Positions 26,951 through 37,064 of a stretch of DNA of 64,000 nt are shown piece after piece. Below the pieces are notes generated by a model. That model was not told where the DNA came from and made no database searches. It saw only the letters and a program-made list of their open reading frames with translations. Position 1 is the stretch's first letter, and the number at the start of each line of letters is the position of its first letter. Both the position numbers and the translations under genes were made by a program. The DNA is from Flavobacteriaceae bacterium (GTDB taxonomy: Bacteria; Bacteroidota; Bacteroidia; Flavobacteriales; Flavobacteriaceae). The stretch is taken from the NCBI GenBank assembly GCA_003443635.1, contig CP031964.1, forward strand, positions 1,954,321-2,018,320. Direction: 5' to 3'.

Positions 26951-26982
26951 AAAAAAAATGACTGTTATTTTTAACAGTCATT
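26951..26982 (-). terminator. Intrinsic terminator of the first precursor-peptide gene
   Basis: A perfect 10-base stem (ATGACTGTTA / TAACAGTCAT) with a four-base loop. On the minus strand it is followed by eight T residues. It begins 8 bases after the stop of the peptide gene at 26990-27175. Confidence 0.85.
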
Positions 26983-26989
26983 TAGCTTT

Positions 26990-27175
26990 TTATAATCCAA
27001 ATTGGGAACAATCACAATCTGTACCAAATTGTAAAACTCCTTGTCCAGAACCAAACAATTCACATGCTTCACGGCATAACTCCGTAATAGTTCCTCCTGA
27101 ATTTGAACAGGAACCATTTATTAATTGTAATTCTAGTTTGTTTAAAGTTTTACCTAATCCTTTTAAATTTTTCAT
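26990..27175 (-). CDS. Cys-rich precursor peptide with double-glycine-type leader (type A, copy 1)
   Basis: A 61-residue peptide. The leader is MKNLKGLGKTLNKLELQLINGS, which ends in a Gly-Ser cleavage-like site, and the core has five Cys residues. This leader (MKNLK.LGK.L.K.E....INGG) is typical of bacteriocin-like or RiPP precursors in Bacteroidota. The frame extends upstream to another ATG, but the MKNLK start matches the sister gene at 28089-28268. No maturation or C39 peptidase gene is nearby. Function unknown; likely a secreted peptide, signal or toxin. Confidence 0.78.
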   Translation of the reverse strand: MKNLKGLGKTLNKLELQLINGSCSNSGGTITELCREACELFGSGQGVLQFGTDCDCSQFGL

Positions 27176-27193
27176 AATTAAAGTTTTAATATT

Positions 27194-27246
27194 AAAACCA
27201 TGAACATTTAATGGCATTCACGATATCTGCCAATTCCTCGCGCGAT
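27194..27246 (-). promoter_or_regulatory. Repeated leader upstream of type A peptide gene 1
   Basis: A 53-base block ending 19 bases before the start codon that is nearly identical to 28292-28344 upstream of the second type A gene. On the minus strand it contains TTGGCAGATATCG and, 20 bases after the TTG, TAAATGTT, which may be a weak Bacteroidota promoter. GGCA and TGCC can also form a small hairpin. Confidence 0.6.
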
Positions 27247-27312
27247 TAGTTAAAAGTAAGAAACAATGTACAGGTATTTATATAAGAATTTGTTAAAACT
27301 ATAGTACGGTAG

Positions 27313-27465
27313 TTAAGTAAAAACTCTAAGAACTAAAAATATAAGAAAGAATATAATACAAATTATGAAAACTGCTCTTGATTGAAAGGATTCAAATAAA
27401 CTATAAATCGGTATTATAAAAAGTATTATTAAAATTAATATAAGTTTATTCCCAATTTTTTTCAT
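27313..27465 (-). CDS. Small two-helix membrane protein, 50 residues
   Basis: A short open frame that is almost entirely hydrophobic: MKKIGNKLILILIILFIIPI, a short polar turn (SLFESFQSR), then a second hydrophobic stretch ending LRVFT. It lies in the precursor-peptide cluster, 137 bp upstream of type A gene 1 and 34 bp downstream of another tiny membrane frame. Size and location would suit an immunity or export accessory. T-rich minus-strand DNA can give hydrophobic frames by chance, so this is tentative. Confidence 0.42.
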   Translation of the reverse strand: MKKIGNKLILILIILFIIPIYSLFESFQSRAVFIICIIFFLIFLVLRVFT

Positions 27466-27499
27466 AATCCAAATAGAAACAAACTAAAAATAGTAAGTT

Positions 27500-27637
27500 T
27501 TAACTTTTTTGTTTTTTTAAATTAGTAAATAAAAAAAATAGTCCCGTAAGAAAAAATGGAAGACTTATTAAAAAATTAGAAGTAAGCCAATAATTCAAAA
27601 AAGAAAAGAAGAAAAAAATAATAGAAAAGATTTTCAT
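27500..27637 (-). CDS. Small hydrophobic protein, 45 residues
   Basis: A second tiny frame beginning MKIFSIIFFFFSFLNYWL, with a short break (TSNFLISLP), a second hydrophobic run and a basic tail KKQKS. The positive C-terminus and two-helix plan are like small membrane immunity proteins. Composition bias makes a chance frame possible; the basic tail and the neighbouring similar frame are the reasons for listing it. Confidence 0.4.
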   Translation of the reverse strand: MKIFSIIFFFFSFLNYWLTSNFLISLPFFLTGLFFLFTNLKKQKS

Positions 27638-27696
27638 AAATAATAATGATTTAATCAAAAATACAAACTTTTATAATAAAAAAAGGTTTCGTAAAA

Positions 27697-27718
27697 GTAA
27701 AAGCGAACCGAAGCTCGC
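27697..27718 (-). terminator. UUCG-loop terminator after type B peptide gene 1
   Basis: On the minus strand GCGAGC-TTCG-GTTCGC forms a six-pair stem (one G-T pair) closed by a C(UUCG)G loop and followed by TTTTAC. It begins 8 bases after the stop of the peptide gene at 27726. Confidence 0.8.
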
Positions 27719-27725
27719 TAGTTAT

Positions 27726-27863
27726 CTAAGGCCTAGTATTGGTTGTTATACTATTAGTGCCTCGGACACGGATTTGTGGAGGAGGTGAAGTAATTAAACC
27801 TACAGAACCTCCATACACTTTAATGGGGTTCTTAATTTCGAATTCTTTGAATTTTTCTAGCAT
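27726..27863 (-). CDS. Short precursor peptide with MLEKFK-type leader (type B, copy 1)
   Basis: A 45-residue peptide. The leader MLEKFKEFEIKNPIKVYGG is nearly the same as that of the gene at 28431-28565, while the core after the GG differs completely (TSPPPQIRVRG, then several Thr and Asn and a final Pro). A conserved leader ending in GG with a variable core is the hallmark of a ribosomally made, post-translationally modified or processed peptide. No modifying enzyme lies in the window. The core has no Cys, unlike type A. The gene is closed by its own UUCG-loop terminator. Confidence 0.75.
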   Translation of the reverse strand: MLEKFKEFEIKNPIKVYGGSVGLITSPPPQIRVRGTNSITTNTRP

Positions 27864-28050
27864 AAATATATTTTTAAGAATTTAATAAAACTACTAATTT
27901 AAAAAAGGATTAACTAATTGAGAGATTAAAAAAGTTAATACTATAAATAAATGTTTAAATTAAACATATAACCAGTGATGTAAATATTGAAATACTGTAG
28001 AATTAATGAAAATTATGGAATGAAGAAAGTAGTAACAACTTCGATCTATT

Positions 28051-28072
28051 AAAAAAGCGAGCCGAAGCTCGC
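28051..28072 (-). terminator. UUCG-loop terminator after type A peptide gene 2
   Basis: On the minus strand GCGAGC-TTCG-GCTCGC is a perfect six-pair stem with a UUCG loop followed by six T residues, 16 bases after the stop of the gene at 28089. Confidence 0.85.
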
Positions 28073-28088
28073 TAGTATCTAATCTTTC

Positions 28089-28268
28089 TTATACACATAT
28101 ATGACACCCATCAGGCATAATTTGACATACATCAGATCCTGCACATGCGAAATAACTTTCAGGAGGAACACCAGGTAGGCATTCAAAGCATTCATTGCCT
28201 TCTCCTCCATTAATTTGTTTCTGTTCGTTTTTGTTTAGGGATCTTCCTAAAGTTTTTAAATTTTTCAT
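28089..28268 (-). CDS. Cys-rich precursor peptide with double-glycine leader (type A, copy 2)
   Basis: A 59-residue peptide. The leader MKNLKTLGRSLNKNEQKQINGG has a proper Gly-Gly end and is clearly related to type A copy 1. The core of 37 residues has six Cys (CFEC, FAC, DVC, GCHIC), enough for three disulfides or thioether cross-links. Like copy 1 it is preceded by the 53-base repeated leader. Its product is probably exported and cleaved after GG, but no peptidase-exporter is encoded nearby. Confidence 0.78.
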   Translation of the reverse strand: MKNLKTLGRSLNKNEQKQINGGEGNECFECLPGVPPESYFACAGSDVCQIMPDGCHICV

Positions 28269-28291
28269 AATAAAAAGTTTTAAAATTATTT

Positions 28292-28344
28292 AAAACCGTG
28301 ATCATTTAATGGCATTCACGATATCTGCCAATTCCTCGCGAGAT
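28292..28344 (-). promoter_or_regulatory. Repeated leader upstream of type A peptide gene 2
   Basis: The second copy of the 53-base block at 27194-27246, with about four differences. In this copy the ATG inside the block opens a nine-codon frame (MPLNDHGFK) that ends before the real start, whereas in copy 1 the same ATG is in frame with the peptide. Confidence 0.6.
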
Positions 28345-28401
28345 GAAATAATAATACATCTAAAATAAAAAATAAAATTAATATGTTAGTATATAAGAAA
28401 A

Positions 28402-28424
28402 TAAAAAAACGAACCGAAGCCCGC
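28402..28424 (-). terminator. UUCG-loop terminator after type B peptide gene 2
   Basis: On the minus strand GCGGGC-TTCG-GTTCGT forms a stem with several G-T pairs and a UUCG loop, followed by a run of T residues. It starts 6 bases after the stop of the gene at 28431. Confidence 0.7.
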
Positions 28425-28430
28425 TTTTCT

Positions 28431-28565
28431 CTATGTTAATGGAGTACCGGCAGAACCAGGATATTTGGCAATAACAAGCTGGTCCTCTTCTAAAAGATTC
28501 GAAGAACTACCTCCAAAAACTTTTATAGGATTTTGAATTTCAAATTGTTTAAATTTTTCTAACAT
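28431..28565 (-). CDS. Short precursor peptide with MLEKFK-type leader (type B, copy 2)
   Basis: A 44-residue peptide with leader MLEKFKQFEIQNPIKVFGG, differing from type B copy 1 at only a few positions. Its core is unrelated: SSSNLLEEDQLVIAKY, then PGSAGTPLT. The sharp change from conserved to variable sequence at the GG supports a leader/core design. It is the first gene of the four-peptide series on the minus strand (order B2, A2, B1, A1). Confidence 0.75.
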   Translation of the reverse strand: MLEKFKQFEIQNPIKVFGGSSSNLLEEDQLVIAKYPGSAGTPLT

Positions 28566-28666: not shown

Positions 28667-28762
28667 TTATAAATCAACAGGCCTTACCTTATGAATGACT
28701 TCTGTACTTATCCAATAAATGTTTGACAACTCACCTTCTTCTATAAAGTCGGATTTTTTCAT
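28667..28762 (-). pseudogene. Collapsed PD40 lipoprotein gene (31 codons)
   Basis: The frame runs MKKSDFIEEGELSNIY, then WISTEVIHKVRPVDL and a stop. The last 23 residues match the C-terminus of the PD40 protein at 30055-30981 ([19 protein letters not shown]), and MKK matches its signal peptide start. Everything between has been lost, leaving start and end joined in frame. It sits between the peptide cluster and the beta-lactamase-like gene and marks the left border of the PD40 array. It could still be translated, but not as a functional propeller. Confidence 0.75.
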
Positions 28763-36044: not shown

Positions 36045-37064
36045 ATGCTTAAAAAGTCAATAAAGAATACAATTTTTATAAACATAGGCGCCTTTTTATT
36101 GGTGCTTATTCTTGAACTAATGAGTAATTGGTTATTCATAGATCGATATGAAACTAATTATTCTTTTTTCTTACATGATCTTAATTATACAATAGCCATT
36201 ATGGCCATCATTTGGATGAATCATTTTGTTCTCATTCCTTTTTTTTTAGATAAGAGACGCTATTTTTTATATGGCATCTTACTCATTGGGATCATATTTT
36301 TTATTTCTTATTTAAAGGGAAATAAGAAAGATGGCTGGTTAGATGTTTCTAAATACTTTTTCTATTTTATTTATACTACTGGAGCCGGAATGGCTGCCTT
36401 TTTTTTAAGAAGAAATATGATCATCCAAAGAGAAAACGCCGAGAAAGAAAAATTACAAAAAGAAATGGAGCTTAATTATTTAAAAGCACAGGTAAATCCA
36501 CATTTTTTATTCAATTCTTTAAATAGTATTTATTCGCTTTCGCGGAAACAATCATTAGAAACCCCAGACCTTGTAATGCAACTTTCAGAATTAATGCGGT
36601 ATCAATTAGAGAGTTCTAAAAAAGAGACCGTTTTATTAAAAGAAGAGCTTGAGTTTATAGAAAACTATTTATTTCTTGAAGAAAAAAGACTAAGCAAGCG
36701 TTGTACTATTGAGTTTTTAATTGACGGAGATTTGTCGGACTTAAGAATTTCTCCGATGTTGCTCATCCCTTTTGTTGAAAATGCTGTTAAACATGGTGCC
36801 CAAAGTACGAATAAACAGAGTTCCATTGATATTTCTGCCACTATAAAAAACTCCACTCTTCACTTTAGTGTTGATAATTCAAAGCCTCACAAAGTTTCTT
36901 CATTGAAAAGAACAGGACTGGGTCTCGAAAATGTGAGAAGACGTTTAAATCTTTTATATCCTAATTCTCACGTATTAGAAATTGATGATAACGAAAAAGA
37001 ATATTATGTAAATTTATCTATTGATTTATCAGTTTCAAAATTTAAAAAAACAGTTAATGATTAA
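36045..37064 (+). CDS. LytS-type sensor histidine kinase, orphaned
   Basis: A 339-residue membrane kinase with four hydrophobic segments in residues 10-125, a short coiled coil (ENAEKEKLQKEMELNYLKAQ) and a His_kinase domain with phospho-acceptor in NPHFLFNSLNSIYSL. The ATPase part has PFVENAVKHGAQ (N box) and GLGLENVRRRL (G box). It closely resembles the kinase at 40276. Its stop codon overlaps the start of a response regulator gene, but that gene is destroyed after 12 codons, so this kinase has no cognate regulator and may signal through the paralog at 41287. Confidence 0.88.
   Translation: MLKKSIKNTIFINIGAFLLVLILELMSNWLFIDRYETNYSFFLHDLNYTIAIMAIIWMNHFVLIPFFLDKRRYFLYGILLIGIIFFISYLKGNKKDGWLDVSKYFFYFIYTTGAGMAAFFLRRNMIIQRENAEKEKLQKEMELNYLKAQVNPHFLFNSLNSIYSLSRKQSLETPDLVMQLSELMRYQLESSKKETVLLKEELEFIENYLFLEEKRLSKRCTIEFLIDGDLSDLRISPMLLIPFVENAVKHGAQSTNKQSSIDISATIKNSTLHFSVDNSKPHKVSSLKRTGLGLENVRRRLNLLYPNSHVLEIDDNEKEYYVNLSIDLSVSKFKKTVND

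Follow-up and report, generated by a model that had tools for sequence, protein, structure and literature searches.

Four short genes that lie together on one strand of a flavobacterial chromosome, with no exporter beside them, raise the question of how their products would be exported and how their expression would be coordinated. They occupy positions 26,990 to 28,565 of a 64,000-nucleotide stretch of contig CP031964.1 (Flavobacteriaceae bacterium, assembly GCA_003443635.1), called the window below. An earlier note on this DNA had read them as leader/core peptide precursors of two types, Cys-rich (A1, A2) and Cys-free (B1, B2). All four open reading frames (ORFs) were found on the minus strand (Table 1), and their leaders group by type. 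The precursor reading is borne out by the recurrence of A leaders in the genome and of both A and B leaders in relatives, whose absence from relatives the earlier note had named as a refutation. Judged by their sequences, A1 and A2 belong to the double-glycine (GG) precursors, with Cys-rich cores. What the earlier note missed is a conserved structured element before each A gene. It is probable that the cluster is an outlying set of GG precursors served in trans by C39 cassettes, and that the A messages carry a cis-acting RNA in their 5′ leader.

The genome, one contig of 3,352,970 bases, was searched with a profile made of 12 type A leaders. This yielded 19 strong matches (expectation value E ≤ 0.002), the 12 profile members included, hence at least 19 A genes in 3.35 Mb; A1, itself one of the 12, scored E = 2.5e-11. 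Upstream of A1 and A2 stands a common block of 67 nucleotides that is 88% conserved, as compared to 72% for the leader-coding block. The element proper is about 57 nucleotides long and consists of a hairpin (helix S0) and an H-type pseudoknot formed by helices S1 and S2. A similar block is found before all 19 strong A genes. We had considered that this conserved DNA might be the remnant of an old coding gene, an idea dropped because the same block precedes the other A genes with paired changes.

A covariance model lacking S1 (R1) was built from 17 copies of this genome; the underlying alignment (A6) left out L071, which is the same element as L062, and R1 also left out L069. Of the 19 strong A genes, 18 have a match of the model in front of them; the exception is L069, where only the 3′ helix is clear. 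Among 18 copies of this genome, S2 is paired in 100% and S1 in 92% of the cells of the alignment. Over the whole genome, R1 finds 21 sites. Besides the 18 before strong A genes, two lie before precursors to which the leader profile had given only E = 0.27 and 0.88, and the remaining one is upstream of a Peptidase_M56 ORF. Thus, 20 of the 21 sites precede an A-type ORF with a leader ending in GG, GS or GD. In the window, the model recovers the A1 and A2 copies only, the next match having an E value of 0.31.

The element is not confined to this genome. A scan of 397 genomes of the family, run with stricter filters that lose weak matches, detected it in 43 genomes belonging to 36 of 237 genera (E ≤ 0.001), and 39 of these 43 genomes have a C39 match. 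Fifty element loci were then examined, namely all 21 of this genome and the single best locus from each of 29 others. Forty-four of them lead to a GG-like ORF and two are near misses (L139 with GD, L175 with GQ); the remainder are two A-like leaders without ATG (L160, L172) and two other genes (L145, L174). We also scanned 84,980 species genomes with a pattern that covers 27 bases of the element and takes no account of the peptides. It hit 99 stretches; the 80 loci listed for these contain 95 distinct matches, which are not independent (some loci overlap or share a genome, and some genomes also belong to the family sample). Four matches are cut by a locus end (L176, L210, L235, L239), leaving 91 that can be tested. 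A GG-like ORF, in a definition that also allows GA, GS, GC, GN and GD, follows in 85 of the 91. The six others are two near misses (L193, L251), an A-like leader with a disrupted frame (L181) and three further cases (L197, L209, L247).

The start codon lies 20–30 nucleotides downstream of the element, typically about 25, in 86 of the 89 pattern matches with an ORF, and 88 of these 89 ORFs encode two or more Cys. A tight GG-leader pattern fits 83 of the 89, as compared to 13.8% of 892 other small ORFs from the same loci (ATG start, 40–139 residues), some of which are perhaps further GG peptides; the looser GG-like definition given above fits 22.8% of the same 892. Not all ORFs after the element are of leader type A (L155 and L171, for example), so that the GG peptides marked by it form a broader group. 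The titles of the pattern matches are mainly Tenacibaculum, Aquimarina, Bizionia, Winogradskyella, Polaribacter, Dokdonia and Lutibacter. Four loci from metagenome-assembled genomes are labelled Bacteroidales or Bacteroidia (L190, L191, L205, L237), and their downstream ORFs are also Cys-rich GG peptides. Two side observations concern loci with the element. The A-like leaders of L160, L172 and L181, left without an ATG or with the frame disrupted, may be decayed peptide genes. Loci L117 and L124 of genome G319 hold arrays of Cys-rich GG peptides in which some genes are preceded by the element and others are not; the L117 array surrounds a C39 exporter.

Base pairing of the element was then compared with shuffled controls. 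In 51 copies from relatives, 92.6% of the cells pair as compared to 83.3% after shuffling, 80 cells are changed on both sides as compared to 23.6, and slid versions of the helices pair in only 34–49%. S1, although absent from the search model, is paired in 98.8% of the cells of these copies. A cleaner test is provided by the outer three pairs of S2, whose bases are free on both sides in the 27-base pattern. With 89 pattern copies, three without a recognisable 3′ arm having been dropped, these pairs form in 92.5% of cases as compared to 67.8% in shuffled sets (maximum 75.7% in 2000 shuffles). Reduced to 30 distinct arm pairs, the values are 82% and 50%. On the gene strand, S1 and S2 together contain 40 G-U pairs versus 7 A-C pairs. 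This excess is as expected for an RNA of the gene strand; folded single-stranded DNA would also be compatible with it.

Where, then, are the exporters? The earlier note had seen no C39 exporter near the cluster, and all six C39 matches of the genome fall outside the window. Three of the six are exporters; the other three are partner ORFs whose C39-like match is weaker. They are arranged in three cassettes elsewhere on the chromosome (L013, L014 and L015). Each cassette comprises a C39-ABC exporter of 730 residues, an HlyD adaptor of 430 residues and a 538-residue fusion of C39-like, VKOR and thioredoxin domains; the domains (C39 and ABC; HlyD; VKOR, Thioredoxin_4 and C39-like) were assigned with Pfam on the proteins of L013. 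Identity among the three exporters is 98.8–100%, and the DNA of the shared cassette genes is about 95–99.8% identical. The C39 domain of the exporter carries the expected Cys and His regions, which the C39-like domain of the fusion appears to lack. The peptide genes and the upstream genes differ among the three cassettes: L014 is preceded by a TPR histidine kinase and a LytTR regulator, L015 by a Sigma70_r2 protein and a TPR-CHAT protein. A-type genes sit inside all three, and in two of them, L013 and L015, the exporter stop codon is followed directly by the first base of the element. The three cassettes are therefore likely exporters of the type A precursors and, to judge from the shared leaders, they would accept those of A1 and A2. 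With them, the proposal of a new small-peptide system without a known exporter is rejected, while that of enzymes acting in trans stands for export and probably for disulfide formation.

Genome comparison links the A leader to C39 proteins. A leaders are present in 25 of the 397 family genomes (E ≤ 1e-4), and 23 of these 25 have a C39 match (E ≤ 1e-5), as compared to 125 of 397 overall. The leaders measure about 21–24 residues, those of A1 and A2 about 22. Only 4 of the 11 codons that differ between the A1 and A2 leaders are synonymous changes; the A leader nonetheless recurs widely. The earlier note had described conserved leaders with variable cores, which holds for the leaders and fails for the core of A2, since clear relatives of it are encoded in L162 (genome G077) and L109 (genome G195), both from other genera. 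As expected of C39-processed precursors, a conserved leader ending in GG, GA or GS is followed by a separate core, and a C39 exporter is encoded in the genome, here in trans. A1 ends its leader with INGS rather than GG.

What kind of signal is the element? It could be a double-stranded DNA promoter or operator, bound by an alternative sigma factor or an activator of GG-peptide genes. It does head many transcription units, and a palindrome is seen by eye in its TCGCGA part; in addition, the sigma-type and kinase/LytTR proteins preceding the L015 and L014 cassettes are regulators that such a reading could call upon. We nevertheless hold it to be unlikely, because the helix arms co-change across many sequences, which would hardly be tolerable for one DNA-binding protein, and because G-U pairs prevail over A-C pairs on the gene strand. 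Moreover, no conserved box was seen by eye just upstream of the copies that abut the exporter, no motif search having been made. The covariation and the tolerated G-U (G-T) pairs would equally suit a folded single-stranded DNA, for instance an attC-like recombination site shuffling peptide cassettes, and conserved ends, variable cores and cassette arrays are features that this reading shares. It is, however, hard to reconcile with an element standing nearly always 20–30 nucleotides before a start codon, and with the L117 array, only some genes of which are preceded by it. No adjacent recombinase was noticed in L013–L015, where no search was aimed at recombinases. We consider a recombination site very improbable.

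The element is most likely a cis-acting 5′-leader RNA of flavobacterial GG-peptide genes. Its covariation, G-U strand bias and position point to action as an RNA, and the constant spacing from the start codon, the place between co-directional exporter and peptide genes and the constraint on base pairs argue for a 5′ leader. Covarying helices upstream of a coherent gene set, the hallmark sought for a cis-regulatory structured RNA, were found. In the window copies, a box resembling the promoter consensus TAnnTTTG, taken from PMC9723704, is seen by eye at or just upstream of the 5′ edge of the element, so that the transcript could begin near the hairpin. Boxes resembling the TATTTTAG box of A2 stand, by eye, before the other A genes of the window type.

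In the mechanism that we propose, the 5′ region of an A-gene messenger would fold into the hairpin and the H-type pseudoknot, ending about 25 nucleotides before the start codon, and would control in cis the translation or the stability of GG-peptide messages. The C39-ABC exporter with its HlyD adaptor would cut the A leader after GG or GS and export the peptide, whose cysteines would probably be oxidised by the VKOR/thioredoxin fusion. The C39-like domain of the fusion, apparently devoid of the usual catalytic residues, may dock the leader. B1 and B2 would form a second class of GG peptides without the element, probably using the same exporters. A1 and A2 appear bacteriocin-like; we infer an antibacterial role and disulfides for them, and export for the B peptides.

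Several observations weigh against this picture. Four of the 43 element-bearing genomes and two of the A-leader genomes (G093, G200) have no C39 match. The alignment of relatives was fitted to S0 and S2, so S2 and part of the G-U counts lean to structure, and S0 itself pairs in only 79–84% of cells. Pseudoknot-free folding of the two window copies was no better than that of shuffled sequences (z of −1.06 and −0.21). Some elements precede no peptide gene: that of L145 (G000:C1:3270451-3270506) lies 52 nucleotides upstream of the Peptidase_M56 (BlaR1-like) ORF, others precede lipoprotein-like ORFs (L174, L197) or the ORF of L209, and in L247 no ORF follows. Finally, no element match was obtained at B1 or B2, nor just before the B genes of 12 loci from relatives. 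Because B genes are without the element, A and B need not share regulation, and the idea of B genes under the same element was rejected. In three B loci (L048, L051, L101), an element match is present elsewhere in the locus, before an A-type gene in L048 and L051.

We lean slightly towards a broader reading, in which pseudoknot leader RNAs of a hitherto undescribed family would act, after transcription start, on a whole regulon of Cys-rich peptides exported by C39 proteins, in Flavobacteriaceae and, beyond this family, in some Bacteroidota. Such RNAs would bring dispersed precursor genes into step with the exporters that they share, and may respond to a signal of competition or of redox state. 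The element offers a leader-independent beacon for bacteriocin-like genes. If it acts as an RNA, a large and mainly marine group of bacteria would have its bacteriocin-like production under structured-RNA control, with a signal open to direct identification. The chromosome itself shows how dispersed precursor genes may make use of a few common exporters.

The type B genes call for a separate discussion. The B1 and B2 leaders are identical at 16 of 19 residues, yet 11 of 57 nucleotides differ. Since 7 of the 10 differing codons are synonymous, most nucleotide changes being silent while residues are kept, the likeness of the two leaders is more than chance. B leaders were found in 14 of the 397 family genomes (E ≤ 1e-3), 13 of which have C39; the exception, G054, is an internal match in a 350-residue ORF and probably false, and the match of G179 contains a stop codon. 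Excluding the four genomes that supplied the profile, C39 is present in 9 of 10, and at a looser threshold (E ≤ 0.02) in 16 of 21. L102 has B-like genes that the B pattern fails to catch. An arrangement like that of the window recurs in G287 and G077, where about 0.3 and 0.6 kb, respectively, separate a B-type gene from an A-type gene preceded by the element. The neighbours of B-type genes in relatives vary (AraC-type regulators, TPR-CHAT proteins, one grasp-with-SPASM cassette), so that the B leader seems to be a general address label for C39 and not to mark any single class of product.

It is possible, if doubtful, that B1 and B2 act as peptide pheromones, leaving the cell through C39 and being perceived by a membrane regulator of the TPR type. 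B-like genes adjoin an AraC-type regulator in L098 (7104-7232), L099 (6744-6857) and L101 (912-1049), with TPR repeats in L098 and L101 and an S9 prolyl oligopeptidase also beside the gene in L098 and L099. Three such cores have, by eye, a common GP..K/R-rich pattern. The B-like gene of L100 stands between an S8 subtilase and a TPR-CHAT protein, and that of L051 comes after a TPR-CHAT protein. In the window, no such regulator is seen by eye next to B1 or B2, whose cores resemble neither each other nor the GP..K/R-rich ones, and the B-like set of G267 sits in a grasp-with-SPASM cassette, a modified-peptide context. That same set, with an ATP-grasp (TIGR04192), an ORF that looks SPASM-like by eye and a C39 exporter beside its leaders, speaks for B peptides as enzyme-modified RiPPs (ribosomally synthesised and post-translationally modified peptides), for instance graspetides. 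We think this improbable for B1 and B2, TIGR04192 having 0 matches in this genome and being absent from 8 of the 12 other B-bearing genomes searched; the genome-wide search covered this maturase family only. As a side observation, the loci L098, L099 and L101 may each hold a peptide-signalling module. A subtilase first labelled by eye in L101 was withdrawn, being a 272-residue fragment without Pfam support.

How do these peptides compare with known systems? According to Coyne et al. 2019 (PMC6671954), bacteroidetocins have leaders of 15–16 residues, cores of 42 residues in the two studied, and a single four-gene locus. The A peptides resemble them in the GG leader, the Cys-rich core, the C39-ABC exporter, the thiol oxidoreductase and membrane protein of the locus and the likely disulfides. 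They differ in leader length, in their diverse cores and many scattered genes, in the structured element and in the fusion of VKOR and thioredoxin to a C39-like domain; the four-part locus is absent at the window cluster, comparable parts being held by the cassettes elsewhere. By the comparisons made, the A peptides would thus work like bacteroidetocins without being members of that family. The NCBIfam model NF047798 (leader_Chryseo, "bacteriocin-like protein"), 18 positions long, describes the same kind of leader as that of A2 and of a paralogue in L014: the latter scores 24.8 bits, above the 23.5-bit cut-off, and A2 19.5 bits, below it. A1, B1 and B2 have no match in Pfam or NCBIfam. Bacteroidales RiPPs with a PCAT exporter, as described in PMC10352776, likewise pair a GG leader with a C39 exporter, but their clusters carry modifying enzymes such as radical SAM or YcaO proteins, none of which was noticed by eye among the window ORFs. 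The same inspection, restricted to the window, noticed no LanB, LanM or LanKC. Graspetides of the grasp-with-SPASM kind (PMC8939145) have in common with type B the leaders of the G267 cassette, and differ by the missing TIGR04192 match here.

As to the RNA, Rfam 15 gave no gathering-level match in the window; on seven loci of this genome it gave seven weak matches (E 0.075–7.2), none on the element, and on six loci of relatives none at E ≤ 1. PreQ1-I and SAM-II are small H-type pseudoknot regulatory RNAs, alike in being compact pseudoknots in a 5′ leader; the element differs by its downstream GG-peptide genes and by this absence of an Rfam match in the loci scanned. No description of the element was found in titles and abstracts of open-licence PubMed Central papers. 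Several motifs from Bacteroidetes figure in a survey of candidate RNAs published in 2010, and some of them, GUCCY-hairpin for example, have no Rfam number. The element is seemingly undescribed, an earlier description among such motifs being conceivable.

Table 1. Features of the cluster region (window coordinates) and exporter cassettes (coordinates on the genome contig, G000:C1)
Feature	Position	Strand	Details
A1 Cys-rich precursor	26990..27175	-	ORF, 61 residues, 5 Cys, leader MKNLKGLGKTLNKLELQLINGS
A2 Cys-rich precursor	28089..28268	-	ORF, 59 residues, 6 Cys, leader MKNLKTLGRSLNKNEQKQINGG
B1 Cys-free precursor	27726..27863	-	ORF, 45 residues, leader MLEKFKEFEIKNPIKVYGG; B-leader profile (B1 is a member)
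B2 Cys-free precursor	28431..28565	-	ORF, 44 residues, leader MLEKFKQFEIQNPIKVFGG; B-leader profile (B2 is a member)
Structured 5′ element of A1	27196..27252	-	Hairpin (degenerate here) and pseudoknot; R1 62.2 bits, E 1e-12 (copy used to build R1)
Structured 5′ element of A2	28294..28350	-	Hairpin and H-type pseudoknot; R1 70.3 bits, E 1.2e-14 (copy used to build R1)
Possible -7 promoter box of A2	28360..28367	-	TATTTTAG; by eye, putative
Terminator-like hairpin after A1	26956..26983	-	Scored on both strands
Terminator-like hairpin after B1	27702..27719	-	
Terminator-like hairpin after A2	28056..28073	-	
Terminator-like hairpin after B2	28403..28430	-	
Hydrophobic ORF upstream of A1	27313..27465	-	50 residues; candidate immunity protein (guess)
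Hydrophobic ORF	27500..27658	-	52 residues; TTG start; sub-threshold Pfam DUF7670 match
L013 cassette	G000:C1 744-760 kb		
L014 cassette	G000:C1 1758-1777 kb		
L015 cassette	G000:C1 3132-3150 kb		

Seven terminator-like hairpins were found in the region, as compared to 0.6 expected. Since one of them follows each of the four genes on the minus strand, the genes look like separate transcription units. The 50-residue ORF upstream of A1 has a paralogue (78% identity) that adjoins another A gene at C1:1702 kb; a search of the 42 other genomes that bear the element gave a best match at E = 0.007. On the strength of this single strong paralogue, a function in immunity is a guess.

The earlier note had raised the possibility of signalling through nearby sensor kinases. 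The first kinase starts about 7.5 kb away (window position 36045), among PD40-type lipoproteins, and the idea was dropped as no tie to the peptides was found. The region from 30055 to 63374 contains many paralogous PD40-type lipoproteins, between which lie proteins of the His_kinase and LytTR types; one lipoprotein copy, one His_kinase and one LytTR protein were checked. A short ORF adjoining B2 (28667-28762, minus strand) ends with NIYWISTEVIHKVRPVDL, which resembles the C-termini of the lipoprotein paralogues at 30–34 kb, and looks like a truncated lipoprotein copy.

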